A DNA stretch of 64,000 bases from Nocardia nova SH22a (lineage in GTDB: Bacteria; Actinomycetota; Actinomycetes; Mycobacteriales; Mycobacteriaceae). The translations under genes and the position numbers were made by a program. The stretch spans positions 3,596,001 to 3,660,000 of the forward strand of contig NZ_CP006850.1 in the NCBI RefSeq assembly GCF_000523235.1. Direction: 5' to 3'. The notes under the pieces are model-generated. The model saw nothing but the letters and a program-made list of their open reading frames with translations. It had not been told where the DNA came from and made no database searches. Of the stretch, positions 771 through 61,653 are shown piece after piece. Position 1 is the stretch's first letter, and every line of letters begins with the position of its first letter.

Positions 771-789
771 GACAGTAAGCGCCACTATA
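771..789. promoter_or_regulatory. candidate TACNGTA-N5-TACNGTA operator (weaker copy)
   Basis: In the divergent SDR/P450 gap, GACAGTA (771-777) and CACTATA (783-789) are separated by 5 bp, giving the 12-bp centre spacing seen at the other sites of this window. A third degenerate half, TATAGAA (759-765), is in the same register. It is the weakest member of the set. Confidence 0.5.
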
Positions 790-876
790 AAGCACTCTGG
801 TGGCCGCCACAACGGACCGCCGCGGCTGCGTAACGGTCTGGTGGACATGGAGACCCGCATACCGAAAGAGTCGCTC

Positions 877-2112
877 ATGAGCATCCCCATCGTCGACGCC
901 GCCGCCAAGGTGCTGGCAACTCCTCGGTCCTATACGGACGAGGTGGCGCTGCACGCGGCACTGGCCGAATTGCGCGCCAAGGCGCCCGTCGCACGTGTGG
1001 AGGTGCCCGATTACAAGCCGTTCTGGGCGATCACCAAGCACGCCGACATACTCGCGGTCGAACGGGCCAACCAGCTGTTCACCAACTGGCCCCGGCCGGT
1101 GCTGATGACCGCCGCCTCGGACGAGATGCAGGCCGCCGTCGGCATCCGCACGCTGATTCACATGGACGACCCGCAGCACCGGGTCGTGCGCGCGATCGCC
1201 GCCGACTGGTTCAGCCCGAAGGCGATGAAGGCGATGGGCGAGCGTATCGAGCAGCTCGCCGTGCGCTACGTCGACGGAATGCGTGACGCGGGCGGGGAAT
1301 GCGATTTCGTGCAGGAGGTCGCGGTCAATTTCCCGCTGTATGTGATCATGTCGCTGCTCGGTGTTCCCGAGTCGGACTTTCCGCTGATGTTGAAGCTCAC
1401 CCAGGAGCTCATGGGCAGCGACGACGACGAATTCAAGCGCAGTGCGCCGGCCGACGAGGCGATGAACTCACTGGTCGAGTTGTTCCAGTACTTCCAGAAT
1501 CTGACGGCGCGGTGGCGCGAGCACCCGACCGGCGATCTGGGCTCGACGATCGCGAATGCCCGCGTCGACGGCGAGCCGCTGTCCGATATCGACACCATGT
1601 CCTACTACGCGATCATCGCCACCGCCGGTCACGACACGACCAGTAGCAGTATCTCCGGTGGTCTGCGTGCCCTGATCGAACATCCCGATCAGCGAGAACA
1701 CCTGCGCGACAACCTGGATCTGATGCCGCGGGCGACCGAGGAGATCATCCGCTGGGTCACTCCGGTCAAGGCGTTCATGCGAACCGCCGCCGAGGACACC
1801 ACCGTCAACGGAGTGCCGATCGCGTCCGGCGATTCCCTGCTGCTGTCCTACGCGTCGGCCAACCGCGACGAGGACGCCTTCGCCGATCCGTTCCGATTCG
1901 ATATCGAGCGGGAGCCGAACAAACACGTCGCCTTCGGTTTCGGCGTGCATTTCTGCCTGGGGGCGGGGCTGGCCCGTATGGAGATCAACAAGTTCTTCTC
2001 CGAATTGCTGCCGCGGCTGAAGTCCATCGAATTCAACGGTGAACCCGAACTCACCGCGACGACATTCGTGGGCGGACTCAAACACCTGCCGATCCGCTAC
2101 TCGCTGAGCTGA
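877..2112 (+). CDS. cytochrome P450
   Basis: Soluble bacterial class I-type P450 of 411 residues. The I-helix oxygen-activation motif AGHDTT is near residue 250, the K-helix ExxR (EIIR) near 289, and the heme-ligand Cys is at about residue 360 within FGFGVHFCLG. The ATG at 877 is preferred because GAAAGAG lies 6 nt upstream and it gives the usual family length; an in-frame ATG at 847 is possible. It should hydroxylate a hydrophobic substrate using electrons from a small redox protein. No ferredoxin gene is adjacent; the only small redox protein seen is the rubredoxin at 10296. It resembles P450s from actinobacterial steroid/terpenoid clusters, but I cannot assign a CYP family. Confidence 0.9.
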   Translation: MSIPIVDAAAKVLATPRSYTDEVALHAALAELRAKAPVARVEVPDYKPFWAITKHADILAVERANQLFTNWPRPVLMTAASDEMQAAVGIRTLIHMDDPQHRVVRAIAADWFSPKAMKAMGERIEQLAVRYVDGMRDAGGECDFVQEVAVNFPLYVIMSLLGVPESDFPLMLKLTQELMGSDDDEFKRSAPADEAMNSLVELFQYFQNLTARWREHPTGDLGSTIANARVDGEPLSDIDTMSYYAIIATAGHDTTSSSISGGLRALIEHPDQREHLRDNLDLMPRATEEIIRWVTPVKAFMRTAAEDTTVNGVPIASGDSLLLSYASANRDEDAFADPFRFDIEREPNKHVAFGFGVHFCLGAGLARMEINKFFSELLPRLKSIEFNGEPELTATTFVGGLKHLPIRYSLS

Positions 2113-2198
2113 TCGGCCGGTATCGACATGTGTATCGCACCGAATTCCGTTCGGGGCCCGAATTGCCGCACCGGCGGCCGATCCACTAGGACGCGCTG

Positions 2199-3695
2199 AT
2201 GACCGACACCCAAGCCTGGGGAGAAACACTCGCCGATCTCGAGCGGCGCCGTACGCGAGTGCGGGAGATGGGTGGCCCCGACCGGGTGGCCAAACATCGC
2301 GGCAAGGGCAAGCTGGACGCCCGGGCCCGCATCGAGCAACTGCTCGACCCGGGGACGTTCCAGGAGTTCGGCACGATGGTGGGCGGCGAGGTCGCCGCCG
2401 ATGCGATCGTGACCGGCTCCGGACTCGTCCACGGCCGTCCGGTGATGGTCGGCGCGGAGGACTTCACGACGCTGGCCGGAACCATCGCGCCCGGTAGCAA
2501 TTCCAAGCGCTATCGCCTCGCCGAACTCGCGGTGCGCAACCGGGTGCCGCTGGTGATGCTGCTGGAGGGGGCCGGCTTCCGGCCCACCGGCGATCACTAC
2601 GGCCGCACCCCGACCGATCTGCTGGCGCAGGCGCAGTGCTCGGGCAAGGTGCCCATGGTGACCGGGGTGATGGGGCCTTCGGCCGGACACGGCGCGCTGA
2701 TCGCGCCGGTGTCGGACTTCGCGGTGATGAGCCGCCACGGCGCCATCTTCACCGCCGGTCCGCCGGTGGTGAAAGTCTCTACGGGAGAGGATATTTCGAA
2801 GGAGGACCTGGGTGGCCCGGATGTCGCCCTGGCGAGCGGGCTGATCCACAACTTCGCCGAGACCGATGAGGAAGTACTCGAGCAGATCCGCCGCTATCTG
2901 TCCTACTTCCCGTCCAGCGCGTGGTCGTATCCGCCGACCTATCAGCCCGACGAGTCGACCGGATCCCGTGCGACGCCGGAATTGCTGGAGATCATCTCCC
3001 GCGACAACCGCCGCACCTACGACATGCGCACCGTGCTCGATGTGATCTTCGACGACACCGACTGGTTCGAGATCCAGCCGCGCTACGGCGAGGCCATCGT
3101 CTGCGCGCTGGCCCATCTGGGCGGGCACACGGTCGCCGTGGTCGCGAATCAGCCGCAGGTGCTGGCCGGATCGATCGACGTCGCCGCCGCGGACAAGGCG
3201 GCCCACTTCATCTCCGTCGCGGACTCGTTCCATCTGCCGATCATCTTCCTCGCCGACAATCCCGGCATGCTGCCGGGCGGCGAGTCCGAGCGTGACGGCG
3301 TATTGCGCAGCGGCGCAAGGATGTTCGTGGCGCAGACCGCCGCGACGACCATGAAACTGCATGTGACGCTGCGCAAGGCCTACGGCTTCGGGTCGATGGT
3401 GATGTCGCTGATCGGATTCGACAACCAGGTGGGCACCTTCGCCTATCCGGGCGCGACCATGGGCGCGATGAGTGCCGCGGCGCTGAGCAACGCCTCCCAT
3501 GCCGAGGCGGATCTGGAGGCCGAGCTGCAGGAGATGGAACTGCAAGCTTCGTACCATTCGGCCGAGCACATGGGTTTCGACGAACTCATCAGCCCCGCCG
3601 AGACGCGTAACGCACTGCTGGTGTCGCTGGAACGCGGGTTGTACGCGCGCCAGGCCGCCGCCGAACCGGTGGCGCGCACCACGATCATGCCCTGA
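2199..3695 (+). CDS. acyl-CoA carboxylase carboxyltransferase (beta) subunit
   Basis: Biotin-dependent carboxyltransferase of 498 residues, homologous to propionyl-/methylcrotonyl-CoA carboxylase beta chains. The N-terminal region KHRGKGKLDARARIEQLLD and the two crotonase-fold halves (about 1-240 and 250-498) are recognisable, with the C-terminal glycine-rich oxyanion-hole region around FLADNPGMLPG. It transfers CO2 from carboxy-biotin to an acyl-CoA. No biotin carboxylase/BCCP alpha subunit lies in the window, so it must borrow one or act otherwise. ATG start with AGGACG upstream. First gene after the P450 in what looks like one long operon to 11758. Confidence 0.9.
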   Translation: MTDTQAWGETLADLERRRTRVREMGGPDRVAKHRGKGKLDARARIEQLLDPGTFQEFGTMVGGEVAADAIVTGSGLVHGRPVMVGAEDFTTLAGTIAPGSNSKRYRLAELAVRNRVPLVMLLEGAGFRPTGDHYGRTPTDLLAQAQCSGKVPMVTGVMGPSAGHGALIAPVSDFAVMSRHGAIFTAGPPVVKVSTGEDISKEDLGGPDVALASGLIHNFAETDEEVLEQIRRYLSYFPSSAWSYPPTYQPDESTGSRATPELLEIISRDNRRTYDMRTVLDVIFDDTDWFEIQPRYGEAIVCALAHLGGHTVAVVANQPQVLAGSIDVAAADKAAHFISVADSFHLPIIFLADNPGMLPGGESERDGVLRSGARMFVAQTAATTMKLHVTLRKAYGFGSMVMSLIGFDNQVGTFAYPGATMGAMSAAALSNASHAEADLEAELQEMELQASYHSAEHMGFDELISPAETRNALLVSLERGLYARQAAAEPVARTTIMP

Positions 3696-11813: not shown

Positions 11814-11832
11814 TACAGTAATAGATACAGTA
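11814..11832. promoter_or_regulatory. candidate TACNGTA-N5-TACNGTA operator
   Basis: Two perfect TACAGTA half-sites (11814-11820, 11826-11832) lie 12 bp apart, followed by a further TGCTGTA (11833-11839) that makes an inverted repeat with the second. The site is about 70 bp before the thiolase start at 11900, a position suited to repression. It shows the same architecture as the other sites in the window. Confidence 0.75.
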
Positions 11833-17754: not shown

Positions 17755-17773
17755 TACTGTAACAGCAACGGTA
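17755..17773. promoter_or_regulatory. candidate TACNGTA-N5-TACNGTA operator
   Basis: TACTGTA (17755-17761) and AACGGTA (17767-17773) have 12-bp centre spacing and lie about 55 bp upstream of the 94-residue gene. It is the proximal of two sites in this gap. Confidence 0.7.
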
Positions 17774-19329: not shown

Positions 19330-19360
19330 ACAAGTATTACCTACTGTATACCTCTCGGTA
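19330..19360. promoter_or_regulatory. candidate operator, three half-sites in 12-bp register
   Basis: ACAAGTA (19330-19336), TACTGTA (19342-19348) and CTCGGTA (19354-19360) share the 12-bp register. The site lies on the side of the gap nearer the minus-strand amidohydrolase. Confidence 0.7.
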
Positions 19361-19403
19361 AATGCTCTCGCAAGCGTTCGGCGCCCACTCCGTCCCGGGT
19401 GCA

Positions 19404-19434
19404 TACTGATATGTGTACAGTACATATATCTGTT
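19404..19434. promoter_or_regulatory. candidate operator, three half-sites in 12-bp register
   Basis: TACTGAT, TACAGTA and ATCTGTT at 19404, 19416 and 19428 are each separated by 5 bp. About 90 bp before the plus-strand amidohydrolase. Not in register with the 19330 site (50 bp between nearest centres), so the two are probably independent operators for divergent promoters. Confidence 0.75.
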
Positions 19435-20380: not shown

Positions 20381-21247
20381 CTACTTGGTCGCGGCCCTCG
20401 AAGAACGTCGTGTCGTGGTGGTCTTGGCGGCCGAGGTCTTCTTGGCGGGAGTCTTCGCCGCGGAGGCCTTCTTCGCCGGAGGTTTCGGCGCGGTGGCCTT
20501 CGCGGCGGCGGTCTTCCTGGCCGACGTGCTCGATCGGCGTCCCGGCTTCGACTCGATGATCCGGTCGGCGTGCTCGAGAATCAGTTCCAGGCCGTACTCG
20601 AAATTGCGGTCGTCGGGCGCCCCGCTGTGCAGGCCCCTGGCACTCGCCTCCGCCAGCAGCGGTGTGGTGTCCGGCGAGATGGTGAGGTTCTCGTAGTAGG
20701 CCGTCGAGCCGGAGTCGGATTCCTTGTTCTTGTCGTAGAGTCGTTGCAGCACAACGGTTCCGTGGACGTGCAGCTCGACCGCCGAATAGGTGTCGACGGC
20801 GTCTTCGAGGGAGAATCCGGCTTCGACCAGATTGGCGATCACCTGCTCGGTGTGCTGGGCGCCGAGCTGCGCGGCCTCCGGGCTCAACGCCGAGCGGATC
20901 AGGGTCAGATCGCACAGAATGGGGTTGCCCAGGAAGGTCTTCCGCATACCGCGTGCGTAACGTCGCAGCGAATCGCGCCAGTTCTCGGCTTCGACGAAGG
21001 GGGTGACGAACTCGGCGTACTGGGTCAACGCGCGGTCGGTCATCGCGTTGAGCAGGTCGTCCTTCTTGCGGAAGTACCAGTAGATGCTCGTCACCCCGAC
21101 ATCGAGGTGCTTGCCCAGCATCGGCATGCTCAGGTTGTCGAGGGAGACCTGTTCGGCCAGTTCGAAGGCGCCATCGATGATGTCCTTGGGGTTCAGGGAA
21201 CCGCGCTCGCGCCGCGGTCGCTTTTCCGCGGTTGCTCGCTTCGCCAT
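20381..21247 (-). CDS. TetR-family regulator with histone-H1-like Lys/Ala tail
   Basis: 288-residue TetR repressor. The N-terminal HTH contains the recognition helix TSIYWYFRKKDDLL (about residues 48-61), identical to that of the TetR at 57391; the ligand domain is similar too (RSALS, VVLQRLYDKNK, GAPDDRNFEYGLE). After about residue 240 comes a tail of AKKA/AAKT/PAKK-type repeats, like mycobacterial histone-like proteins; the paralogue's tail is much less basic. The ATG at 21247 is chosen because GAGGAGG lies 11 nt upstream; a longer frame to 21304 lacks a site. It is divergent from the P450 at 21482 with operator 21416 between, and is a likely regulator of the island. Confidence 0.92.
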   Translation of the reverse strand: MAKRATAEKRPRRERGSLNPKDIIDGAFELAEQVSLDNLSMPMLGKHLDVGVTSIYWYFRKKDDLLNAMTDRALTQYAEFVTPFVEAENWRDSLRRYARGMRKTFLGNPILCDLTLIRSALSPEAAQLGAQHTEQVIANLVEAGFSLEDAVDTYSAVELHVHGTVVLQRLYDKNKESDSGSTAYYENLTISPDTTPLLAEASARGLHSGAPDDRNFEYGLELILEHADRIIESKPGRRSSTSARKTAAAKATAPKPPAKKASAAKTPAKKTSAAKTTTTRRSSRAATK

Positions 21248-21415
21248 CGCCGTGGCCACCTCCTCGTAATGTGTTGCATCGTCCGCCGATCGCCTCCGCG
21301 TCACGCGGCGGCGTGGAACTGATACTACCCGTCACCGTAAATGCAACCGCAGTGCGTTCGTCCGGCGGGTCGCCGCCGCTGCCGGCGGGGTGCCGGGACT
21401 CCTTCTTGCGAAAGT

Positions 21416-21434
21416 GACTGTATGCTTTACAGTA
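21416..21434. promoter_or_regulatory. candidate operator, near-perfect palindrome
   Basis: GACTGTA-TGCTT-TACAGTA: the inner ACTGTA/TACAGT arms (21417-21422, 21428-21433) form a perfect inverted repeat around 5 bp. It lies between divergent tetR (start 21247) and P450 (start 21482), 48 bp before the P450. Best single example of the motif. Confidence 0.8.
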
Positions 21435-21481
21435 TGATCATCGGGAGTTCCCGAGGACTCGGCGATGTTGGAGGTGGCCCT

Positions 21482-22693: not shown

Positions 22694-22726
22694 CGGGTGT
22701 GCCGCGCCGATCGACGAGGAGGAGAT

Positions 22727-24385
22727 GTGGCCGAGGAACCGACGCGTCCGCTGCCGTCCGTGACACCGGAGACCGAATTCTTCTGGACTGCGGGCGAAGA
22801 CGGGCAGCTGCGGATTCAGGAGTGCACGTCGTGTTCGGCGTTGATCCATCCGCCGCAGCCGGTGTGTCGCTACTGCCGGGGCGGCGGCATGGGAGTGCGG
22901 GTGGTGTCCGGATTCGCCACGCTCATCGGTTTCACCGTGAATCAGCGGTTCGGCCTGCCCGGTCTGCCGCCTCCCTATGTGGTGGCGCAGGTCGCTCTGG
23001 AGGAGGATCCGCGCGTCCGGTTGACGACCAACATCGTGGAATGTGATCCGGAGCGGCTGGAACTCGGCATCCGGATGGAGGTGGTCTTCCAGCGGGCCGC
23101 AGGCGTGTGGTTGCCGATGTTCCGCCCGGCGCCGCCTCCGAATCCGCCGAAACCGTTGCCCGCCGACGATATTCGGCCTGCCGCGATGCGTGCGATGGTC
23201 CGGCCGATGGCCTCGGCGGACAAGTTCGAGGACAAGGTCGCGCTCACCGGCATCGGTACGTCCCGGCTGGGGCGCCGGCTCATGGCCGATCCGCTGTCGC
23301 TGACCGTCGAGGCCTGCCGGGCCGCGGTCGAGGATGCGGGATTGAGCCTGGACGATATCGACGGCTTGTCGACCTACCCGGGATCGGGCGCGCTCGGCCC
23401 GTTCACCGAGGGGGGTGTCACGGCTGTCGAATCGGCTCTGGGGATCAGACCGACCTGGTACAACGGCGGCGGCGAGACCTTCGGGCCGGGCGGTTCGGTG
23501 ATCGCGGCGATGCTGGCCGTGGCCGCCGGCTTCGCCAGGCACGTGCTGTGCTTTCGCACCGTGTGGGAGTCCACGTACGCGGAATTGGTTCGCGCCGGGC
23601 GAATTTCGCCGTCCGGCGGCATCACCGACAGCTGGCTCACCCCGTTCGGGGCGATCTCGGCCGCGCACATCCTGGCCCAGACCGCGCAACGGCATTTCCA
23701 CACCTACGGCACCGACCGCGAGACCCTGGGCTGGATCGCGCTGAACCAACGGGCGAACGCGGCGCGCAACCCCACCGCCATCTATCGCGATCCGCTCACG
23801 ATGGACGACTATCTGTCGGCGCGGCCGATCACCACGCCGTTCGGGCTCTACGACTGCGACGTGCCGTGTGACGGATCGGTCGCGGTCATCGTCTCCGCCC
23901 GGGAGACCGCGAGTGATCTGGCGCAGCCTCCGGTGCTGGTCGAGGCGGTGGGAACGCAGATCATCGAACGGCTGGAATGGGATCAGAGCACCCTGACCCA
24001 CGAGCCTCAGGTACTCGGCCAGGCCGCGCACCTGTGGACCCGCACGACGCTGCGGCCCGAGGATGTCGATGTCGCCGAGCTGTACGACGGCTTCACCTTC
24101 AACTGCCTGTCCTGGATCGAAGCCCTGGGCTTCTGCGGCATCGGGGAGGCGAAGGAATTCCTCGACCAAGGCAAGAACATCGCGCGAGACGGCGTGCTGC
24201 CCTTGAACACTCACGGCGGCCAGCTCTCACACGGGCGGACCCACGGTATGGGCCTGCTGCACGAGGCCGTCACCCAGCTGCGGCAGCAGGGTGGCGCGCG
24301 CCAAATTCCCGATGCCCGAGTCGCGGTCGTCACCAGTGGCGGTCTGACACCCAGCGGCGTGCTGTTACTGAGGACGGATCGATGA
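22727..24385 (+). CDS. fusion: DUF35 (Zn-ribbon/OB-fold) + thiolase-fold aldolase-like protein
   Basis: 552-residue two-domain protein. Residues about 1-150 are a DUF35 domain with a zinc ribbon (CTSC, then CRYC); residues about 175-552 are a thiolase fold (VALTGIGTSRLGRR onwards). The usual nucleophilic Cys segment reads NGGGETFGPGG with no Cys, and the C-terminal part LSHGRTHGMGLLHEAV resembles Ltp2, the retro-aldolase of steroid side-chain degradation that works bound to a DUF35 partner. A retro-aldol C-C cleavage of a 3-hydroxyacyl-CoA-type intermediate is inferred. GTG start 22727 after GAGGAGGAG; ATGA overlap with the hydrolase gene. Confidence 0.85.
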   Translation: MAEEPTRPLPSVTPETEFFWTAGEDGQLRIQECTSCSALIHPPQPVCRYCRGGGMGVRVVSGFATLIGFTVNQRFGLPGLPPPYVVAQVALEEDPRVRLTTNIVECDPERLELGIRMEVVFQRAAGVWLPMFRPAPPPNPPKPLPADDIRPAAMRAMVRPMASADKFEDKVALTGIGTSRLGRRLMADPLSLTVEACRAAVEDAGLSLDDIDGLSTYPGSGALGPFTEGGVTAVESALGIRPTWYNGGGETFGPGGSVIAAMLAVAAGFARHVLCFRTVWESTYAELVRAGRISPSGGITDSWLTPFGAISAAHILAQTAQRHFHTYGTDRETLGWIALNQRANAARNPTAIYRDPLTMDDYLSARPITTPFGLYDCDVPCDGSVAVIVSARETASDLAQPPVLVEAVGTQIIERLEWDQSTLTHEPQVLGQAAHLWTRTTLRPEDVDVAELYDGFTFNCLSWIEALGFCGIGEAKEFLDQGKNIARDGVLPLNTHGGQLSHGRTHGMGLLHEAVTQLRQQGGARQIPDARVAVVTSGGLTPSGVLLLRTDR

Positions 24386-26229: not shown

Positions 26230-27246
26230 ATGAAGGTTCCGTTCACCTGGAAGGTCACCGGGTGGTTCATGGTGGGATGGTCGGCCGAATTTCCGCAGGG
26301 TGAGACCAAGCCGCTGCGGTATTTCGGTGAAGACCTGGTGGCCTACCGTGACGACTCCGGTGAATTGCATATTCTGACCGGCCACTGCCGCCACCTGGGA
26401 GCGCATCTCGGCCACGGCGGCAAGGTGGTCGGCGATTGCGTCGAGTGCCCGTTCCACGGCTGGCGTTGGGGGCCCGACGGACGCAATCGCAAGATCCCGG
26501 GGGAGGACCGGGTCAATCGCGGTCTGCGCCTGCGGGTCTATCCGGTCAACGAGCAGAACGGCTGTGTGTTCATGTGGCATCAGCCCGAGGGCAAACAGCC
26601 GGACTGGGAGATGCCCGACATCTTCGAACTGTTCCCCGATGTCGGGACCGATCCGTCGGGGTACTACCGGCCGTACCCGGAGTTCTCCCGCAAGACCGAG
26701 CGCGAGCCGGTGCACCCGCAGGTGGTCCTCGAAAACGGCCCCGACAGTTTGCATTTCGAGTACGTGCACGGCGCCACTGTCACTCCGCAGATGCTGGACT
26801 GGCGCGAAGAGGGTCACACCTGGTCGTTCCTGACCGGATGGCCGGACGCGCGCAGCGACGACCCGGACCGGATGGCGTTGCGGATCCATGCGCAGATGTT
26901 CGGTCTCGGCGGTTCCATCAGCGTGTTCGAGGGATCGTCGAAGCATCGGCTGATCTTCGCCACCACGCCGGTCGACGACGAGTGCTCGGATCTGTTCTAT
27001 TCGATCTGGTGGCCGCGCAATCCCGGTGACGAGTCCGACGTCCCGCCGCCCGAGGTCCAGAAGCGCGTCGAGAAGCAGTTCCTGATCACCGTCTGGGAAG
27101 ACCTCAGCATCTGGCGGTATCAGAAGTACGTCGAACACCCGCCGCTGTCGCCTAAGGACGCGAAACCGTATCTGTCCCTGCGGAAATGGGCCACCCAGTT
27201 CTACGACGTGCCTCCCGAGGACGCCGCCGTGAAGGTCGGGTCGTGA
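26230..27246 (+). CDS. Rieske non-heme iron oxygenase, KshA-like
   Basis: 338-residue terminal oxygenase. The Rieske [2Fe-2S] ligands are Cys53, His55, Cys73 and His76; the mononuclear iron site is D172-x2-H175-x4-H180 in NGPDSLHFEYVH. Size and layout match the 3-ketosteroid 9-alpha-hydroxylase oxygenase (KshA) group. It hydroxylates a ring position using electrons from a flavin/ferredoxin reductase; no KshB-type reductase is in the window. ATG 26230 follows GGAGGT. Its stop overlaps the GTG of the following gene. Confidence 0.88.
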   Translation: MKVPFTWKVTGWFMVGWSAEFPQGETKPLRYFGEDLVAYRDDSGELHILTGHCRHLGAHLGHGGKVVGDCVECPFHGWRWGPDGRNRKIPGEDRVNRGLRLRVYPVNEQNGCVFMWHQPEGKQPDWEMPDIFELFPDVGTDPSGYYRPYPEFSRKTEREPVHPQVVLENGPDSLHFEYVHGATVTPQMLDWREEGHTWSFLTGWPDARSDDPDRMALRIHAQMFGLGGSISVFEGSSKHRLIFATTPVDDECSDLFYSIWWPRNPGDESDVPPPEVQKRVEKQFLITVWEDLSIWRYQKYVEHPPLSPKDAKPYLSLRKWATQFYDVPPEDAAVKVGS

Positions 27247-28170: not shown

Positions 28171-28866
28171 TCAGTTGTCGTCGGACTCGTTCTTCGGGAA
28201 GTACCGCAGGAGTGTGACGTCGCCGATCTGGGTCACGTCGGCCAGTTGCATCCGTCTGCGTGGCCCGCCGGGGAACTCGGCGGGGTTGACGAACCGGGGT
28301 GCGTCGGCTTGGCCGATGAGCAGCGGGGCGACGGCGAGGTGGAGTTCGTCGGCGAGACCGGCGGCGAGGATGGCGGTGTGGATGCTGGTGCCGCCTTCGA
28401 TCATCAGCCGATCGATGTCGCGGGCGCCGAGGTCATCGAGCATGGCGCCGAAATCGACTGCCTCGCCGAGTGATACGACGGTGGCGAGTTCGCCGAGGCG
28501 GTCGCGGAGGTTCTCGGCGCCGGTGTCGGTGGTGTAGACGAGCGGGATGCGATCCTCGACGCCGTAGTGCCAGAAGTGAGCGGCCGGGTCCAGGTTGCCG
28601 GAGCCGGTGACCACGATCTTCTGCAGATGTGCGGGTTTACCGGCTGCGGCGCGGGCCGCCAGGCGTTCGGGGCTCTTGATGATCAGGCGTGGGTTGTCGC
28701 GGCGCAGGGTTTCCGCGCCGATGAGGATGGCGTCGCATTCGGTGCGTACGACTTCGACGCGGTCGAAGTCGGCCTCGTTGGACAGATAGAGCCGTTCGGG
28801 AATGGTGTCGTCGATGTAGCCGTCCACGCTGGCCGCGACGGACAGCACTACGTACGGTCGGGGCAC
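28171..28866 (-). CDS. RibD-C/dihydrofolate-reductase-like protein
   Basis: 231-residue RibD C-terminal/DHFR-fold reductase: PYVVLSVAASVDGYI at the N terminus, AILIGAETLRRDNP near 55, and IEGGTSIHTAIL near 160, typical of pyrimidine/pterin-type NADPH reductases. The physiological substrate of this stand-alone family is not known. GTG at 28866 has GGAAGG 7 nt upstream and overlaps the end of the XRE regulator gene by 19 nt, so the two are co-transcribed. It is unrelated to the catabolic island. Confidence 0.87.
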   Translation of the reverse strand: MPRPYVVLSVAASVDGYIDDTIPERLYLSNEADFDRVEVVRTECDAILIGAETLRRDNPRLIIKSPERLAARAAAGKPAHLQKIVVTGSGNLDPAAHFWHYGVEDRIPLVYTTDTGAENLRDRLGELATVVSLGEAVDFGAMLDDLGARDIDRLMIEGGTSIHTAILAAGLADELHLAVAPLLIGQADAPRFVNPAEFPGGPRRRMQLADVTQIGDVTLLRYFPKNESDDN

Positions 28867-31128: not shown

Positions 31129-31233
31129 TACGGGATTCCAATACGTGAGGTAGCGCCAGCTGAAAAGGATTCTCCTGCATCCGCAGGCAGGTCAACCTGT
31201 CACCCGATCCTGCAGCAGCCCGTCACGGTGCGC

Positions 31234-32576: not shown

Positions 32577-32655
32577 GCCGAACCGCTGGCCGTGCCGGGT
32601 TGAGCGCCGCGCGATACCCTGCGGACTGTCCACAACCGTTGTTCGAGGGAGCCCT

Positions 32656-32967: not shown

Positions 32968-33620
32968 TCAGAGTCGGTCGGCAATTCCACACCACACCGC
33001 GAACCCGTGCACAGTATCCACATTGCGAGCCTCCGCGCGTGCCAGTGCCCGCACGTTTTCGTGAACCATCGGGTTGTAGCGAGTTTGGGCTGGCGTGATT
33101 GCCCTCGCTTTCTCTAGAGCGCCGAAAGCTTGGCGACGGTTGCCGTGCAGCAGGTAGGCCCGTGAAAGGTCGATGAAGTGGTGGCCCGCACGCTCTTTCG
33201 GGGCCTCGGCAGGAATGACCAACGACTGCGCACGACTGAGTGCATCGGTTCCATCCATCGCCTCCACTGCGCGAGCGACCGACCAGATATCGACGTTCGT
33301 TGGACCGAACGACAGAATCGGGTCACGGTCATCACCGACGCGCGCGGCTGCCTCTCGCGCTTCGGCGAGGTGTGCATCGGCAGCGTCGCGATTCCCCGTA
33401 CCGCGATGCTGCCAGCCCGGACTGCAAATGCAGGCCGCCCCACGCGATTAGATAGGAGCGTCGGCCGACGTCGAGTCGCGGTTCGATGTCAGCTCGGCAG
33501 CGCTCGAGGAAATTTAGGGCTGCCGCCAGTCTCCGCCGAAGGTGAGTAGCGCGGCCCGCTGGAACTGGCTGGTTGCCATCCACAGTTGGTTGCCGGATTC
33601 ATATGTCGCCCAGGCGATCC
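32968..33620 (-). pseudogene. decayed regulator C terminus (TPR-like), at least two frameshifts
   Basis: Joining three frames gives a continuous TPR-type C-terminal region: WATYESGNQLWMATSQF (near 33600), then LNFLERCRADIEPRLD and GLHLQSGLAASRYG (33400-33510), then NRDAADAHLAEAREAAARVG to the stop at 32968. Frame changes fall near 33510-33520 and 33395. The N-terminal HTH part is missing; the break coincides with the left end of the second duplicated block (33617). It is a different regulator from the intact one at 28848. Confidence 0.75.
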
Positions 33621-34213
33621 AGCGTGACGGAGATCCGACACCGGGTCGAATCCCGAGCGCCGGGCCCACTACCGGGGAGGGAACGCGCATGGACGATGAA
33701 GAACCCCGCGCAATGGGTTACGTGTGCATCGACCTGGTGAAGACCGTTACCGGGCTGGACATTCAAACCCGGAAGGTCGCCACGCGGCTCGGGTACGAGT
33801 ATGCCGGATTGTGCCGCAACAGCAGTCTGATCATGGCCGAGGCGCTGTTGGATCATGTCAGTGCGCACAGGATCGAACTTCTGATCGTTCCCGGCCTGAT
33901 GCACCTGCGTGGCCGGATTCCCGCGGACCTCGCTGATCTCACCGATATCCACGACCTCGTGGCGAATCGGACCTACGAACGCGAGGGTGCGTACGCGCCC
34001 GACGAGGGCCACAGCCCGAGCCCGCTGGCAGCACCGTGACCGATTCCAGAACTCCACTGCCGCAGCGAAATCCGTGCGACACGAGCGCGCCGGACTGGTC
34101 GGCGGCAATCGCGTCGTTGGACAGCCTGCTCGCGGCTCTGCGGGCGTGGCAGCCGACCGGGCAGCCGCCTGCGCCCCCCACGGAGAAGGATATCGTCGCG
34201 CTGACAACTCTCG
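33617..34213 (+). repeat. segmental duplication, copy 2
   Basis: Same-orientation copy of 30518-31120. Its left end abuts the truncated regulator pseudogene; its right end runs into the 3' end of dapA. Confidence 0.8.
33689..34039 (+). CDS. serine-resolvase N-domain-like small protein, copy 2
   Basis: 116 residues, about 86% identical to the protein at 30593 by eye, with the same MGYVCIDLVKTVTG start and LMHLRGRIPADLADLTDI core. The 5' flank has lost the small membrane gene that precedes copy 1, but the GGGGAGGG ribosome site is kept. It is likely still translated, as differences are mainly substitutions without frameshift. Confidence 0.65.
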   Translation: MDDEEPRAMGYVCIDLVKTVTGLDIQTRKVATRLGYEYAGLCRNSSLIMAEALLDHVSAHRIELLIVPGLMHLRGRIPADLADLTDIHDLVANRTYEREGAYAPDEGHSPSPLAAP

Positions 34214-34299
34214 GGGCGGCAGGGGCGGACCTCGTTCCGGCGAACAGGCCGGTCTACAGCAGACCGGATTCCTCGAGTCCGGCGCGCAGGCGTTGCTGA
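34036..34299 (+). CDS. small protein of unknown function, copy 2 (extended C terminus)
   Basis: 87-residue counterpart of the 61-residue protein at 30943; the first 60 residues align (WSAAIASLDSLLAALRAW). The copy-1 stop region is altered here (GGGGCGGCAG instead of GGGGCGGTAA), so the frame reads on for 27 residues into the convergent dapA end. The extension is probably a side effect of the duplication. Confidence 0.55.
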   Translation: MTDSRTPLPQRNPCDTSAPDWSAAIASLDSLLAALRAWQPTGQPPAPPTEKDIVALTTLGAAGADLVPANRPVYSRPDSSSPARRRC

Positions 34300-35144
34300 T
34301 GCTCCGGCGGGCCTTGCCTGTAGGGCATGCGCAGTGCGTCGGAGGAGATGACGCCGAGCATTTTCATCGCCGCCTTGGACTGGATGGCGCCCTGTGAGAC
34401 GTGCATGATCGCGTCGACGGCGGGGATGAGGCGCCGGTGGATCTCGCGGGCCCGGGTCAGGTCGCCGCGGTCGACGGCGGCGATCATCTCGGCGTAGTGA
34501 TCGCCGGCGACGTGGCCGACGACCGACACGATGCCGGTCGCGCCTTGGGCGAGGTGTGGCAGGTTGACGACGTCGTCGCCGGAGTACCAGAGCAGGTCGG
34601 TTTTCGACATGATCCGACTGGCCTCGAAGAAGTCGCCCTTGGCATCCTTGACGGCGCGCACGGTGGGGATGTCGGCGGCGCGGAGGATGGTGTCGGTGCT
34701 CAGCGCTGTTCCGGTCCGGCCGGGGATGTCGTACAGCATGACGGGCGTACCGTCGCCGGCTTCGGCGACCAGGCGGAAGTGTTCGAGGATGCAGTCCTGT
34801 GGCGGCTTGTTGTAGTACGGCGTGACGACGAGCAGGGCGTCGGCGCCGCAGGCGACCATCTCGCGCGCCGCACGAGTGGAGTGCTCGGTGTCGTTGGTGC
34901 CGCAGCCGGCCATCACCTGGACGCGGTCGCCGACGGCCTCGACCACCGCCCGCACACAGGCGTAGTCCTCCTCGTCGGTGGTGGTGGCGGACTCACCGGT
35001 GGTCCCGTTGACCAGCAATCCGTCGTGGCCGTGGTCGGCGAGATGGACAGCGAGGTTCTGCAGGCCGTCGTAGTCGATCGAGCCGTCGGCGTGCATGGGG
35101 GTCACCATCGCTGTGATGACTCGGCCGAAGGGGGTGTCCACCAT
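34254..35144 (-). CDS. dapA: 4-hydroxy-tetrahydrodipicolinate synthase (DapA)
   Basis: 296-residue class I aldolase: TTGESAT near residue 48, the Tyr motif VTPYYNKP near 138, and the Schiff-base Lys in RAVKDAKGD near 168. It condenses pyruvate with aspartate semialdehyde in lysine/diaminopimelate biosynthesis in the cytosol. ATG 35144 gives MVDTPFGRVITAMVTPM, the usual family N terminus; the upstream in-frame extension is not protein-like. Whether this is the sole or a second dapA of the genome cannot be told; its usual neighbours are absent. Confidence 0.92.
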   Translation of the reverse strand: MVDTPFGRVITAMVTPMHADGSIDYDGLQNLAVHLADHGHDGLLVNGTTGESATTTDEEDYACVRAVVEAVGDRVQVMAGCGTNDTEHSTRAAREMVACGADALLVVTPYYNKPPQDCILEHFRLVAEAGDGTPVMLYDIPGRTGTALSTDTILRAADIPTVRAVKDAKGDFFEASRIMSKTDLLWYSGDDVVNLPHLAQGATGIVSVVGHVAGDHYAEMIAAVDRGDLTRAREIHRRLIPAVDAIMHVSQGAIQSKAAMKMLGVISSDALRMPYRQGPPEHQQRLRAGLEESGLL

Positions 35145-35398
35145 GATCGTGAGAGTACCTGCGCCCAGCACCTCATTGTTGTGCCAGGTCCGGCGGTGTC
35201 GCGTCCGGTCGCCGGACGGTATGTGCTCGCTGGTCTCGGCTGCCGCTGCGGCGCACGCGATCAACACGACGGCGACCCCGCGACGCCGAAACTGGACGCC
35301 TCACTTCGCCCGTATCCGGTCGATCAGCGCGCCCGGGACCGCTCGACCACTCCGCCTTGGTCGGCTGCGGCGTACGTTGGTAGCTAGAGGTTTGCCCT

Positions 35399-36370
35399 AT
35401 GCGACAGCGATGGTGGGTGTGGATTGCGGCGTTCCTGACGGCACTGGGAATGTGCGCGGTAATCGGGTGCGTCAGCGGCACCCGGCCCGAGCACGCTGCA
35501 CCGGGCTCGAGCACATCCTCCCAGGTAGGGGGCTCGGGGACACCCTCCTCGGAAGGGGTTCCCGTACTGGTCGTGAAGGTGGACAACAGTCCGCAGGCCC
35601 GGCCGCCGGTGGGGCTCGGAGCCGCCGATCTGGTGTACGTCGAGCCGGTCGAGGGTGGTCTGAGCCGGTTGGCCGCGGTTTTCTCGACCGACAAACCGCC
35701 TGTGGTCGGACCGGTCCGGAGTGCGCGGGAAACGGATCTGACGCTGCTGGACCAGTTCGGCAATCCGACGCTGGCATCCTCCGGTTCCGCGCCTGAGCTG
35801 GTTCCCGCCATCGACGGCTCCGCGCTCCAGAACGCCTCGGCCGATCTGCAACCCTCGGCGTACTTCCGCGACTACAGTCGCGCCGCCCCGCACAACCTGT
35901 TCGTCCACCCCGATCAGCTGCCCGCAGGCGGCGGCTGGCCGTCGGCTTCGCAACCGCATTTCGGTCCCGCGCCCGCCGGTGGCCGGCCCACCCAATCTGA
36001 GGAAGCGCGGTATCCGGGCGCGGTGATCGGCTTCGACTGGTCACCCGGCGACCACGGGTGGCTGGTGTCCATGGACGGTGCCGCCTACACCGATGCCGAT
36101 ACCGGACGGCTCACCGCAAGTACGGTCGTGCTGCAGAGTGTGCCGGTGCGGAACTCGGCCATCAGCGACGTCGCGGGCAGCGTCTCACCCCTGGCTCAGA
36201 CGACCGGTAGCGGTCAGGCACTCGTGCTTCGCGACGGGCAGGAGTTTCCGGCCGTGTGGTCGCGGCCGTCCCCGGAGGCGGGCACAACCTATAAGACCCC
36301 CACCGGTGCAGACATCCCCTTCGCGCCGGGGCAGGTCTGGACTGTTCTGGTTCCAGCGCAACTCTGGTAA
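35399..36370 (+). CDS. DUF3048 (YerB-like) lipoprotein
   Basis: 323 residues. N-terminal signal (WWVWIAAFLTALGMCAVIGC) with lipidation Cys at 24, a Ser/Gly-rich linker, then the DUF3048 domain: VVKVDNSPQARPPVGL (about 58-73), VGPVRSARETD near 105 and a C-terminal part ending in VWTVLVPAQLW. It is exported and membrane-anchored; the molecular function of the family is not established. It is divergent from dapA; the 254-bp gap shows no island operator or other gene. Confidence 0.9.
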   Translation: MRQRWWVWIAAFLTALGMCAVIGCVSGTRPEHAAPGSSTSSQVGGSGTPSSEGVPVLVVKVDNSPQARPPVGLGAADLVYVEPVEGGLSRLAAVFSTDKPPVVGPVRSARETDLTLLDQFGNPTLASSGSAPELVPAIDGSALQNASADLQPSAYFRDYSRAAPHNLFVHPDQLPAGGGWPSASQPHFGPAPAGGRPTQSEEARYPGAVIGFDWSPGDHGWLVSMDGAAYTDADTGRLTASTVVLQSVPVRNSAISDVAGSVSPLAQTTGSGQALVLRDGQEFPAVWSRPSPEAGTTYKTPTGADIPFAPGQVWTVLVPAQLW

Positions 36371-36434
36371 CCGGGACCGCGGCAGCCGGTCACATCACAC
36401 GCGATCCGTCCGTGCTCGGGCGTCGAACGCCGGA

Positions 36435-36469
36435 GATCCGTCCGGCCCAGGGCTCGGGCCGGACGGATC
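36435..36469. terminator. 14-bp bidirectional hairpin terminator
   Basis: Perfect 14-bp stem (36435-36448 / 36456-36469) with 7-nt loop between the convergent DUF3048 and flavin monooxygenase genes. Confidence 0.8.
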
Positions 36470-36488
36470 GGTGGTCTGGCCGATCCGG

Positions 36489-38051
36489 TCAGCCGCCGGC
36501 CGAGACCGGGGTGGCAGCTCGGTCGGGCGCGCCGAACCAGGTGGTGAGGGCGTCGCGCAGTGCGGGTGCCGCCGTGTCGAGGGGCTCGTCGACCGTTGCG
36601 GCCCAGGCGATGTGGGCGTCCGGGCGGATCAGTAAGGCATCGGCGGGGCGGTCGCCGGTGGTCGCGGTGCGGAGGTCGACGCGATCGGCCCACTCCTCGG
36701 CGACCTCGCGGAGGTCCGGGCGGGCGGCCAGGATCAACAGAACCGGGCGGGCGGCGCGCATCAGGTCGGCGATGCTCATGTCTCCCGCATCGGTCCGCAG
36801 GGGTAGGTCGGCGACGACAGTGCCGGTCAGCGGGTGGCCGTTGGGATTCGGCAGCGGATACCGCAGATCGGTACCCGCGATGAGGGCTCCCATCCGGTGC
36901 AGCGCGGGCACGTCCCTCAGCAGTTCCTGGAACAGCTCACGCAGCGCCTCGGCGGCCGGGTCGTCGCCGCGGCGCAGTGCCACCTGCGCCTGGGTGTGCA
37001 TCATCGTGCGCGCGCCCGCGAAGTGGCGCTCCTCGTGATAGCTGTCCAGCAGGCCCTCCGGCGCCCGGCCCTGCAACTCGGCGGCCAGTTTCCAGGCCAG
37101 GTTGACCGCGTCGAGCATGCCCGCGTTGAGCCCGACGCCCGTGGCCGGGAACGCGTGCGCGGCGTCACCGGCCACCAGAATCCTTCCGGCGCGGTATTGT
37201 TCGGCCTGGCGGGCCTGGAATTGGTAGCGCGACAAGCGAATCGGGTCGCTCATGGGTAGCTCGACACCGATGACCCGGCGGATGCTGTCCTGCAGCTCGG
37301 TCAGGGTCATGGGCTCGTTGTCGTCGGTGCCGGTGGCTTCGTCCTCGGTGGTCTGGATCATCAGCGTGCCCGCCGGGGAGAGCCGTCCCACCGCGAACAC
37401 CCCGTGGTCGGTCCGGGTGAAGCCGGTGGGAATGGCGCCGTGCCCGGCGAGTTCGAGTTCGCCGGTGTCGAGCTGGGTCACCGAATCGGGCACACTGACC
37501 TGGCCCAGCCGGTTGACCTCCGGATATGTGGTTCCGGGGAAGTCGATTCCGGCCATCGCGCGGACGCGGCTGGAAGCGCCGTCGCACGCCACCACATAGC
37601 TTGCGCCGAGCCGGTATTCGCCCTCCGGACCGCGCACGGCCACGGTGACCCCGGCATCATCCTGCTCGACCCCGTTCACCTCGTGCCCGCGCCACACCTC
37701 GGCTCCGAGCTCGCTCGCCCAATCATCGAGCAGCCGTTCGAGTTTCGGCTGCGGCAGATGCATGGCCCGCAGCGGCGGATCGGCCAGCGGGCTCAGGTCC
37801 ACGTGCATTCCGCCGAAGGGAATCGCGGCCGTCGGACCCGCGCTCGAACCTATCGCCTCGAGCCGTTCCTTCAACCCCCGATAACCCAGCAATTGCACGA
37901 TCTGCCCAGCGAGCCCATTCGCTTTCGGCACGGTCCGCAACTGCGCCGACCGCTCCAGAACCACCGGCCGCACCCCGGCCAGCCGCAGTTCGGCCGCCAG
38001 CATCAGGCCCGTCGGGCCCGCACCCACGATGATCACGTCGGCATCAGTCAT
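36489..38051 (-). CDS. FAD-dependent aromatic hydroxylase/monooxygenase (PHBH family)
   Basis: 520-residue class A flavoprotein monooxygenase: GAGPTGLMLAAELR at the N terminus (FAD), the DG motif ACDGASSRVR near 155, and GDAAHAFPATGVGLNAGM near 278. The long C-terminal thioredoxin-like region (from about 390) is typical of polyketide- or rifampicin-type hydroxylases. It uses NAD(P)H to hydroxylate a phenolic or polyketide substrate. ATG 38051 (MTDADVIIVGAG) is the clear start. It stands alone and lacks an island operator. Confidence 0.9.
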   Translation of the reverse strand: MTDADVIIVGAGPTGLMLAAELRLAGVRPVVLERSAQLRTVPKANGLAGQIVQLLGYRGLKERLEAIGSSAGPTAAIPFGGMHVDLSPLADPPLRAMHLPQPKLERLLDDWASELGAEVWRGHEVNGVEQDDAGVTVAVRGPEGEYRLGASYVVACDGASSRVRAMAGIDFPGTTYPEVNRLGQVSVPDSVTQLDTGELELAGHGAIPTGFTRTDHGVFAVGRLSPAGTLMIQTTEDEATGTDDNEPMTLTELQDSIRRVIGVELPMSDPIRLSRYQFQARQAEQYRAGRILVAGDAAHAFPATGVGLNAGMLDAVNLAWKLAAELQGRAPEGLLDSYHEERHFAGARTMMHTQAQVALRRGDDPAAEALRELFQELLRDVPALHRMGALIAGTDLRYPLPNPNGHPLTGTVVADLPLRTDAGDMSIADLMRAARPVLLILAARPDLREVAEEWADRVDLRTATTGDRPADALLIRPDAHIAWAATVDEPLDTAAPALRDALTTWFGAPDRAATPVSAGG

Positions 38052-38322
38052 TCGCACTCGCAGCGCTCCGTTTCCGTGGGTTTTCGGCTGAGGCCAGCGA
38101 TTCTGCAGCACTACCGGGGTCTTGCCGCAAGCCCCCGTCTGCGATATACGTTGAAGAGGGAGGGAATTTCGCCTACCGGCAGAGCCTCACATCGACACCT
38201 CGCCGAACCTGCGTGATGTGTCCACCGGGCATCCGGTCGACGCCCAGGCGTCGGCGATCCTGCACCCGCGAACCCCGGCGACTGACGTTCCATCGGCCTT
38301 GGTGCCGGGGTGCATTCGAGTT

Positions 38323-41452: not shown

Positions 41453-41471
41453 TACCGTTGATATTACTGTA
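41453..41471. promoter_or_regulatory. candidate TACNGTA-N5-TACNGTA operator
   Basis: TACCGTT (41453-41459) and TACTGTA (41465-41471) have 12-bp centre spacing, 38 bp before the minus-strand PPOX gene. Confidence 0.72.
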
Positions 41472-41568: not shown

Positions 41569-41587
41569 TACTGTAAGTCTATCTGTA
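41569..41587. promoter_or_regulatory. candidate TACNGTA-N5-TACNGTA operator
   Basis: TACTGTA (41569-41575) and ATCTGTA (41581-41587) lie 14 bp before the DUF35 start at 41601, close enough that binding would cover the ribosome site or transcription start. GGTCGTA (41557-41563) is a degenerate third half in register. Confidence 0.7.
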
Positions 41588-49858: not shown

Positions 49859-49959
49859 GGAAAATCCTTTCCGGATGCGGGCGAAGGTCTACTCGCACGA
49901 TCGAATCAGCGACCGGGCGGCCGCGTCCGGGTGTCTCACCCATGATTTGCGGTTAACTA

Positions 49960-49978
49960 TATAGTAAGAGCAACGGTA
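49960..49978. promoter_or_regulatory. candidate TACNGTA-N5-TACNGTA operator
   Basis: TATAGTA (49960-49966) and AACGGTA (49972-49978) at 12-bp spacing in the divergent gap between the FabG-like operon and the dehydrogenase at 50047. A further TACGGTC (49983-49989) lies 11 bp on, one base off register. Confidence 0.72.
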
Positions 49979-57053: not shown

Positions 57054-57084
57054 TACTGATGAAGGTACAGTATACAATACCGTT
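57054..57084. promoter_or_regulatory. candidate operator, three half-sites in 12-bp register
   Basis: TACTGAT, TACAGTA and TACCGTT at 57054, 57066 and 57078, each 5 bp apart, upstream of the hydratase/ligase operon. The rest of the 56928-57390 gap (about 300 bp beyond this site) contains no gene I can support. Confidence 0.78.
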
Positions 57085-57390: not shown

Positions 57391-58215
57391 TCAGGACGCG
57401 GCGGCTCTGGGGTGCGAGCGAGTGCCGGTCACCTTCGTCGCGGACCTGCCGCCGCGTTCACGAACCGCTGCCGCGGAGGCCGCCTTCGCGGCCGTCCCCT
57501 TCGGTGTGGCGGAGGTGTTCTCGCGGACCAGGAGGCTCGCGTGCGCCAGGATGCGTTCGAGCCCGTACTCGAAGTTGCGATCGTCGGGAGCCCCGCTGCG
57601 CCGGCCTCGGGAGACCGCCTCGGCCAGCAGTGGCGTGGTCTCCGGCTCGATGGTGATGTCCTCGTAGTACGCCGTCGCATGGGCGTCGAGTTGCTTGTTC
57701 TTGTCGTAGAGCCGTTGCAGCACAACCGAACCGCGCACGTGCAGGTTGATCGCCGAATAGAGGTCGAAGGCGTCGTCGACGGAGAATCCGGCGTTCACCA
57801 GGCTGGCGATCGCCCGTTCGATGCCCTGGGCGCCGAGTCGCGCGGCATCGCGGCTCAGGGCGGAGCGGATCAGGATCAGATCGCACAGGATCGGATTGCC
57901 GAGAAAGGTCTCCCGCATCGTGCGTGCGTGGTTGCGCAGCGTCTCGCGCCAGTCGTCGGCCTCGACGAACGGGGCGGCGAACGCGTACTGGCTCAGCGCG
58001 CGGTCGGTCATCGCGTTGAGGAGGTCGTCCTTCTTCCGGAAATACCAATAGATGCTGGTGACTCCGACGTTCAGATGCCTGCTGAGCAACGGCATGCTGA
58101 GCCCGTCGATCGTCACCTCCTCGGCGAGTTCGAATGCGCCGAGGATGATGTCTTCCGGGTTGAGGGAGCCGCGCGCACGGCGCTGCCGCTTCGCGGTACT
58201 GCCGCGCTTCACCAT
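57391..58215 (-). CDS. TetR-family regulator (paralogue of the one at 20381)
   Basis: 274 residues. The HTH region is nearly the same as in the first TetR, with identical TSIYWYFRKKDDLLNAM recognition segment, and the ligand-binding domain shares ETFLGNPILCD, RGSVVLQRLYDKNK and GAPDDRNFEYGLE blocks. The C-terminal tail is short and Ala/Arg-rich rather than AKKA-repeated. ATG 58215 or GTG 58212 is the start. A five-half-site operator array lies directly upstream, suggesting strong autoregulation. Confidence 0.92.
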   Translation of the reverse strand: MVKRGSTAKRQRRARGSLNPEDIILGAFELAEEVTIDGLSMPLLSRHLNVGVTSIYWYFRKKDDLLNAMTDRALSQYAFAAPFVEADDWRETLRNHARTMRETFLGNPILCDLILIRSALSRDAARLGAQGIERAIASLVNAGFSVDDAFDLYSAINLHVRGSVVLQRLYDKNKQLDAHATAYYEDITIEPETTPLLAEAVSRGRRSGAPDDRNFEYGLERILAHASLLVRENTSATPKGTAAKAASAAAVRERGGRSATKVTGTRSHPRAAAS

Positions 58216-58250: not shown

Positions 58251-58305
58251 GACTGTTCAAGTTACTGCAATCAACACAGTTGAGGCTACCACGGTTGTTA
58301 CTGTA
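58251..58305. promoter_or_regulatory. five-unit operator array in 12-bp register
   Basis: Half-sites GACTGTT, TACTGCA, CACAGTT, TACCACG and TACTGTA start at 58251, 58263, 58275, 58287 and 58299, all with 5-bp gaps. It begins 35 bp upstream of the tetR start. A lone TACTGTT follows at 58361. The longest array in the window; the rest of the 58216-58447 gap is otherwise empty. Confidence 0.75.
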
Positions 58306-61487: not shown

Positions 61488-61532
61488 CGCTGCTCCTTCC
61501 AGTGTCCGGTCATGACATTCGAGAAAGAACTA

Positions 61533-61551
61533 TACGGTAAGAGTTACAGTT
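61533..61551. promoter_or_regulatory. candidate TACNGTA-N5-TACNGTA operator
   Basis: TACGGTA (61533-61539) and TACAGTT (61545-61551) at 12-bp spacing, about 45 bp before the CoA-transferase start on the minus strand. Its AGAG spacer resembles that of the 49960 site. Confidence 0.72.
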
Positions 61552-61634
61552 CTACTGTCGACAGCTGTTTCGATACGTACGCGGCCGGGCTGGGGGCTGT
61601 GCGGGCTTGACCGCGGACGCGATGTGTATAGCAT

Positions 61635-61653
61635 TACTGTAATGCAAGCAGTA
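61635..61653. promoter_or_regulatory. candidate TACNGTA-N5-TACNGTA operator
   Basis: TACTGTA (61635-61641) and AGCAGTA (61647-61653) at 12-bp spacing, about 80 bp before the DoxX gene. Together with 61533 it gives one operator per divergent promoter. Confidence 0.72.

Follow-up and report, generated by a model that had tools for sequence, protein, structure and literature searches.

We analysed a 64,000-nucleotide stretch of the Nocardia nova SH22a genome, positions 3,596,001-3,660,000 of the 8.35-Mb single-contig assembly (hereafter the window). It holds a gene island with two arms, the genes of two TetR-type regulators, TetR1 and TetR2, and a recurrent element built from 7-bp TACNGTA-like units in 12-bp phase, located within AT-rich gaps of both arms. 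A Pfam search of 50 open reading frames (ORFs) assigned cytochromes P450, a KshA-like Rieske oxygenase, acyl-coenzyme A (acyl-CoA) dehydrogenases, ligases, hydratases and thiolases to the arms, as well as class III CoA-transferases, amidohydrolases and a fused ChsH2-Ltp2-type protein. Judging from these genes the island probably catabolises a polycyclic isoprenoid of steroid- or terpenoid-like nature. The features are collected in Table 1.

For the description of the element each 19-mer was compared with TACNGTA-N5-TACNGTA at the 12 fixed bases of this pattern. A single site of the window (11814) matches all 12 bases, five sites match 11 (17755, 21416, 41453, 57066, 61533) and six match 10 (19342, 19404, 41569, 49960, 57054, 61635). 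In 200 kb of control sequence from two other places of the same genome no 19-mer exceeded 9/12, a level reached 23 times in the window and 17 times in the control. Exact TACNGTA units occur 12 times in the window; 11 of them are partnered by a unit of at least 4/6 precisely 12 bp away, and each of the other distances between 8 and 16 bp yields one partnered unit at most. Counting pairs of units of at least 5/6 gave 13 pairs at 12 bp in the island, 59 in the islands of relatives and none in the control. The most frequent other distance within 7–60 bp accounted for 3 pairs in the island and 13 in the relatives, the latter at 24 bp, where the island itself has 2. Pairs at 36 bp numbered 2 in the island, 8 in the relatives and 2 in the control, and the relatives' islands contain 8 pairs at 17 bp. 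Only the 12-bp spacing, together with 24 bp in the relatives, stands out. Further units were counted around 59 thinned sites from other genomes that had been picked on the 19-mer alone. A third unit of at least 4/6 lies outward at the 12-bp phase in 34 of 118 flanks, compared with 2–8 of 118 at offsets of one to four bases inward. The usual form is therefore a pair, and over a quarter of the flanks add a third unit. The symmetrised matrix has the consensus TACTGTAwnnnwTACAGTA, and one phase further out it shows a weak C/G preference on both sides.

The weight matrix and a sequence-only profile were trained on 59 sites, none of them from this genome. Since covariance-model searches lose weaker sites that the plain matrix retains, the matrix was used for the parts list, with a threshold of 11.8 bits and strong sites defined as those of at least 15.0 bits. 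It finds 16 strong sites in the window, for the most part no more than about 160 bp from the closer called start, and none among 299,670 control positions, where the top value was 14.4. Left of the window, seven further sites of at least 15 bits are located 4.0–11.4 kb away (region L005, 20 kb), and region L001 adds two, at 3.279 and 3.285 Mb. A profile search of the whole genome at E ≤ 10 returned 12 rows representing six places on both strands, all within 3.279–3.658 Mb, so the motif is not equally frequent within genes or elsewhere in the genome. At most two mismatches are found at 55 genomic places (130 for the pattern read backward), of which 12 lie in the window, 7 at 3,584,619-3,592,017 and 2 at 3.279 and 3.285 Mb; 19 of the 55 fall within 73 kb, or 0.9% of the genome (binomial 1.6e-25).

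An earlier note on this stretch had described half-sites that are always TACNGTA, spaced 12 bp apart, in about fourteen regulatory gaps, one of them with a five-unit array, and a central 28–38 kb segment devoid of them. The spacing was borne out as the sole clear peak of the pair-distance counts, as was the site-free centre, the matrix finding nothing between 21428 and 41453. The units are indeed phased and TACNGTA-like, but 771, 17868 and 19330 reach only 9/12, a level also attained by the control; 771 is assisted by its neighbour 759 (16.7 bits), and the other two are below the matrix threshold. Multiple gaps of both arms do carry the element, although those with a site of at least 15.0 bits number ten. 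The array has five phased slots, but its units match unevenly (Table 1). The sites listed for the window form part of a set that continues past it, with seven to the left and the two at 3.279 and 3.285 Mb. The gap at 17755 sits between two 3' ends, and its site precedes no callable gene.

Table 1. Features of the window. Operator scores are matrix bits; relatives are the four further Nocardia genomes with the island.
Feature	Position	Strand	Evidence
Weak three-slot operator before the likely coding start of CYP-A (P450)	759..789	.	16.7 bits; 17.0-17.8 in 4/4 relatives
Operator, only exact pair, 59 bp before thiolase-a	11814..11832	.	33.6 bits; before thiolase-a in 4/4 relatives, 25.9-30.3 bits
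Operator-like pair, gap between two 3' ends	17755..17773	.	22.5 bits; no called gene start beside it
Operators 19342, 19404 and 19416 between divergent amidohydrolase genes AmdH2-a/AmdH2-b	19342..19434	.	18.1, 20.8 and 15.0 bits
TetR1, TetR_N + TetR_C_1	20381..21304	-	Pfam, alignment, AlphaFold2 + Foldseek match to TetR-type repressors
Operator, pair + weak third unit, in the divergent tetR1/CYP-B gap	21416..21446	.	25.5 and 12.8 bits; CYP-B region 33.4-35.1 bits in 4/4 relatives
Fused ChsH2 (OB/zinc) + Ltp2-like thiolase	22697..24385	+	Pfam; matches both 6ok1 chains (lipid-transfer protein + ChsH2)
KshA-like Rieske oxygenase	26230..27246	+	KshA_C + Rieske; 118.7 bits to 4qdc (KshA)
Central segment without operators	28848..38111	.	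no matrix site; 7 called genes
Operator, PNPOx side of divergent PNPOx/ChsH2 gap	41453..41471	.	24.2 bits; gap 21.9-24.8 bits in 4/4 relatives
Operator 8 bp before ChsH2-like gene	41569..41587	.	22.2 bits
Three-slot operator between SDR-e and hydroxyisobutyrate-dehydrogenase-like gene (HIBDH)	49948..49978	.	16.5 and 19.8 bits; HIBDH region 18.5-21.3 in 4/4 relatives
Three-slot operator before ECH-c and the acyl-CoA ligase genes that follow	57054..57084	.	17.7 and 22.6 bits; 22.0-26.4 in 4/4 relatives
TetR2, TetR_N + TetR_C_1	57391..58215	-	Pfam
Five-slot array upstream of tetR2	58251..58305	.	best pair 16.2 bits at 58263; unit scores 4, 5, 4, 3, 6 of 6, counted by eye
Operator 46 bp before class III CoA-transferase gene (CoAT-b)	61533..61551	.	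26.4 bits; 29.0-30.4 in 4/4 relatives
Operator 24 bp before DoxX and acyl-CoA ligase genes	61635..61653	.	23.0 bits

The island was compared with those of four Nocardia relatives (G003, G009, G014 and G031; N. nova SH22a itself is G000). Upstream regions of CYP-A, thiolase-a, CYP-B, PNPOx, ChsH2, HIBDH, ECH-c and CoAT-b carry a site of at least 15 bits in all five genomes, and these eight sites are kept before the orthologues despite an altered gene order. The KshA-like oxygenase has copies of 87-88% identity in the islands of all four relatives. None of the seven called genes of the site-free centre (28,848-38,111) was matched by tblastn in the islands fetched from the relatives, and the centre is therefore probably foreign to the regulon. 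The ORF 38111-38767, past the central segment, has a partial match in two relatives. The left arm likewise holds three genes (10331, 14843 and 15919) for which the fetched islands gave no match.

Both regulators exceed the Pfam gathering cut-offs for TetR_N and TetR_C_1 (24 and 21 bits), TetR1 with 43.4 and 51.7 bits and TetR2 with 37.4 and 51.5 bits. The AlphaFold2 model of TetR1 has a mean predicted local distance difference test score of 67.4, with ten-residue means of 58–93 over residues 31–250, and its best Foldseek matches are TetR-type repressors; the true start of the protein is likely near 21223. The recognition helix VGVTSIYWYFRKK is unchanged in all ten TetRs of the five islands. 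One helix is common to both paralogues, as dual control by the two TetRs would demand. Across the five genomes TetR1 and TetR2 share 83–85% identity over 60 columns of the DNA-binding part (own pair 83%) and 57–71% over 152 columns of the ligand domain (own pair 71%). A tree built from 48 of the sequences places all T2 proteins of the five islands in a single clade (96/93) and the T1 proteins in two further clades. Within the own genome the next-best match of TetR1 after TetR2 falls to E 2e-13. Upstream of tetR, a site of at least 15 bits is present at 66 of 80 loci from named Nocardia, Rhodococcus, Aldersonia and Mycobacterium, compared with 1 of 155 segments 1.5 kb away. By group these are 55/55 mycobacterial loci, which are close relatives and do not count as 55 independent cases, 3/3 Rhodococcus/Aldersonia loci and 8/22 Nocardia loci; several of these upstream sites are also in the training set of the matrix.

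We also assessed how the regulators and the element are distributed across Nocardia. Sites were counted at no more than one mismatch, and genomes were called TetR-bearing if they had a match to TetR2 at E ≤ 1e-50. In a first set of 36 genomes (own included) five carry close TetR copies, two each, and have 8–11 sites; the other 31 have at most 4. Extending the set to 128 genomes (own included) gave 24 TetR-bearing ones. At least five sites are found in 23 of these 24 and in 1 of the 104 TetR-less genomes, with medians of 10 and 1 sites, respectively.

From these sequence comparisons we conclude that the TACnGTA-like palindromic element is very probably the shared operator of a TetR subfamily that the probably catabolic island encodes twice. 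The conclusion draws on the element itself with its 12-bp phase, on the clustering of sites in the island and their placement before orthologues, on the co-occurrence within the genus and on the common recognition helix. Regulation by the two encoded TetRs, put forward in the earlier note as a supposition, thereby receives strong comparative support. In such a regulon, the promoters would be shut in the absence of an inducer by dimers of TetR1 and TetR2 sitting on the units, frequently in adjacent groups of two or more. Release of the dimers would be brought about by a catabolite of a polycyclic isoprenoid, which may be a CoA thioester, leading to joint induction of the P450 and KshA-like oxygenases, the acyl-CoA ligases, beta-oxidation and the Ltp2/ChsH2-type cleavage; Mce uptake may be co-induced, though its site is weak. 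As the reading head is common but the ligand domain has diverged more, the paralogues would act on the same sites and answer different intermediates or different levels. Either one dimer per 19-bp pair or one dimer per 7-bp unit, i.e. two per pair, is possible. A dyad in the spacer is favored by the T/A bias of the matrix at the middle of the left/right unit and by A/T at the spacer edges, and side-by-side binding by the occurrence of third units. We advance only tentatively, as a rather doubtful extension, a two-input switch in which either or mixed dimers stack on two to five TACnGTA units, array length sets the tightness with which each operon of the 75–85 kb island is held, and each paralogue releases the shared sites on meeting a different pathway intermediate.

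Several observations weigh against assigning the operator to these TetRs. The bit scores of the relatives' sites are not independent, as those sites are training data of the matrix, and only their places count. Sites are present in relatives and absent here before ALDH (4/4), the carboxyltransferase (3/4) and ACAD-d (3/3), and the AmdH2-b site is found in the own genome alone (0/4 relatives); we read these differences as regrouped operons. The helix VGVTSIYWYFRKK is present in 80/80 TetRs of the named loci, which had been retrieved and read by means of patterns derived from that helix, so that its constancy is partly a choice. Fisher's test on the 128 genomes (4e-23) overstates the evidence, since related genomes are not independent samples; the split is plain regardless. 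G156 is TetR-bearing yet has no site at up to one mismatch, and G078, without a TetR at the cut-off, has five. Two paralogues are not required, because only one copy passes E ≤ 1e-50 in five of the 24 genomes, three of these copies being 75–81% identical to TetR2. Autoregulation of tetR is not universal: 14 of the 22 Nocardia loci stay below 15 bits, and in three of the four relatives the T1 gene is among them. The 17755 gap is bounded by the 3' ends of 15919-17409 (+) and 17992-19209 (-), and the perfect site at 3279125 precedes a TetR gene carrying another helix.

The pattern could also arise if the element were read by another regulator, for example one encoded outside the island, with the TetR genes merely travelling along. 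Any island-linked factor would produce the same correlation, since the TetR co-occurs with an island gene: copies of the KshA-like oxygenase at 87-88% are found in G003, G009 and G014 besides G000, and none above 44% elsewhere among 40 genomes (G031 outside this set). A strong site is also missing at tetR itself in the majority of Nocardia loci noted above. Such an arrangement is nevertheless unlikely, as the element lies upstream of tetR at every mycobacterial and Rhodococcus/Aldersonia locus, where, within the 20 kb read at the mycobacterial loci, just eight further genes of the window are found again in the majority; moreover, both paralogues of the window keep one helix while the remainder diverges more, and a palindrome suits a TetR dimer. 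That the units are chance matches is suggested by nothing more than the AT-rich gaps in which they are located, and we regard this as having next to no probability. Shuffling the bases within the 29 gaps (300 shuffles) left on average 0.09 sites of at least 10/12, with a maximum of 2, whereas the real gaps hold 12 distinct sites. Given in addition the 12-bp phase, the lack of profile matches elsewhere in the genome and a mean of 0.84 sites in the 104 TetR-less genomes, an artefact of composition is refuted.

The steroid-type gene content would suit a known mycobacterial steroid motif, that of KstR, of KstR2 or the "motif X" of the Rv0767c orthologue, an assignment we consider very improbable. 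Neither TNNAACNNGTTNNA, the KstR operator consensus as given in the earlier note, nor the KstR2 consensus ANCAAGNNCTTGNT occurs in the window, which places the island in neither regulon and agrees with the earlier note, where the motif had been set apart from both. The Rv0767c-type regulator was tried since mycobacterial relatives and the published phytosterol motif seemed to fit, and was rejected: at all four mycobacterial loci of Rv0768 orthologues (L161-L164) the TetR carries the helix AYTYFSSKNHL, the upstream 1.5 kb contain GGACA-N2-TGTCC palindromes, and TACNGTA pairs there reach 8/12 at most. Rv0768 and Rv0767c are presumably divergent neighbours. Their gene order is given in PMC10470581. 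According to PMC6593523, motif X, belonging to the Rv0767c orthologue, marks phytosterol-induced operons and precedes P450, SDR and TetR genes. Each of L161-L164 holds two of the palindromes in the 1.5 kb upstream of the Rv0768 orthologue, beside a divergent TetR gene; they are likely the operator of the Rv0767c-type regulator and fit the GAC/GTC enrichment reported for Rv0767c sites in PMC10312376. The Rv0767c type thus looks different from the island operator, the distinction being drawn from helix and palindromes at these loci. In the upstream 1.5 kb at a Nocardia Rv0768 locus (L165), a pattern search detected neither a TetR of this kind nor the palindrome, and TACNGTA pairs did not exceed 8/12.

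The proposed regulon resembles the KstR and KstR2 systems in having TetR-type repressors encoded within a catabolic cluster, palindromes in gaps and steroid-type genes; according to PMC3068626, the KstR2 operator is the 14-bp palindrome AnCAAGnnCTTGnT, found in three gaps, and KstR has a 14-bp motif of its own. Here, in contrast, the motif is different, proceeds in 12-bp steps and is accompanied by two paralogues with one recognition helix. Two TetR-family regulators in one cluster are likewise known from the gamma-butyrolactone receptor/pseudo-receptor pairs of Streptomyces; SfbR and SfbR2 bind the same sites and only the pseudo-receptor answered antimycin A, as stated in PMC7480387. Unlike the present pair they govern signalling and antibiotic production and not a catabolic island, their operators being autoregulatory elements (AREs). 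Dimers of TetR-family proteins side by side on one long operator are documented by crystal structures for CprB and QacR (PMC4150764), whereas here the phased units alone suggest such an arrangement, some arrays having three or more units. The closest solved sequence and fold class (TetR_C_1) is the tetracycline repressor TetR, with a Foldseek TM-score of 0.69-0.78 by target length and an identity of 21-28%, both among the best 50 rows; the neighbours of TetR1 are a P450 and an amidohydrolase gene, and the two proteins score 80.2 and 76.7 bits against the tetracycline TetR equivalog (NCBIfam NF010319), below its cut-off of 265. Among the open papers listed for such a regulator or motif, no title or abstract start describing this operator was found, subscription papers being mostly outside the scope. 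The operator provides a readable regulatory address for an island of which we found no description and whose TetR recurs in 24 of the 128 sampled Nocardia genomes; a related TetR with the same operator is also found in mycobacteria, Aldersonia and Rhodococcus phenolicus. It indicates the likely pathway genes, and the substrate could be traced via what releases TetR1 and TetR2.

Some gene assignments bear on the reading of Table 1. Among solved structures CYP-A matches P450terp (344 bits). Alignments with the CYP-A orthologues begin at residue 2, 11, 41 and 47, which makes a coding start downstream of the ORF start at 727 probable; the same applies to the ECH-c start at 57077, as the orthologues there align from residue 40-50. 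The fusion at 22697-24385 would be an enzyme of the aldolase type. Structure matches of 17992-19209 are the hydrolase 4dzi (745 bits), followed by PtmU3 (67) and DitZ (36). To the left the island continues: ligases and hydratases are encoded there, as is an Mce operon with MlaE permease, MlaD and Mce4_CUP1 domains, conserved at 72-90% in G009. The Mce/YrbE operon is located at L005:1060-5911, at the left end of the region read, and its upstream phased site is weak (5971/5983, 13.7 and 14.2 bits). In G009 the Mce/YrbE counterpart sits right behind tetR1.

The only candidate gene at the 17755 gap is a 94-residue ORF, 17416-17700 (-). Within 17410-17991 the sites 17755 and 17868 adjoin genes without a counterpart in the relatives' islands, and they are perhaps the remnant of a displaced promoter. 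The near-identical sequence TACTGTATACCTATCGGTA, of the type seen in the AmdH2-a/AmdH2-b gap, is present in several mycobacterial loci. The two distant sites, a perfect operator at L001:9125-9143 and a 10/12 operator at L001:14973-14991, are separated from the left edge of the window by 317 and 311 kb. Nearby are an APH/ecdysteroid-kinase-like gene and two further TetR genes (8390-8938 and 14138-14893), whose helices differ. The two sites are either outlying members of the regulon or represent a related motif.

Among the regulators, the C-terminal tail of TetR1 (window 20381-20534) is Lys/Ala/Pro-rich and histone-H1-like, of the AKKAPAKK type, in G000 and G009; it is shorter in other T1 proteins, absent from TetR2 of the four relatives, and may add nonspecific DNA contact. 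Further TetR copies with 41-46% identity to TetR2 occur in G117, G094, G123 and G122, with up to four matches per genome. A perfect pair (L148:3322-3340) lies about 1.3 kb upstream of a diverged M. moriokaense paralogue, which has 53% identity over part of its length and the same recognition-helix core. On one 49-kb contig of G016, a genome without this TetR subfamily, a crude helix search over 19 kb (L060) found no TetR. The same contig carries four one-mismatch variant pairs of the TAAAGTA/TACAGTA type in 12-bp phase (G016:C38:2778-46668), perhaps a sister operator code.

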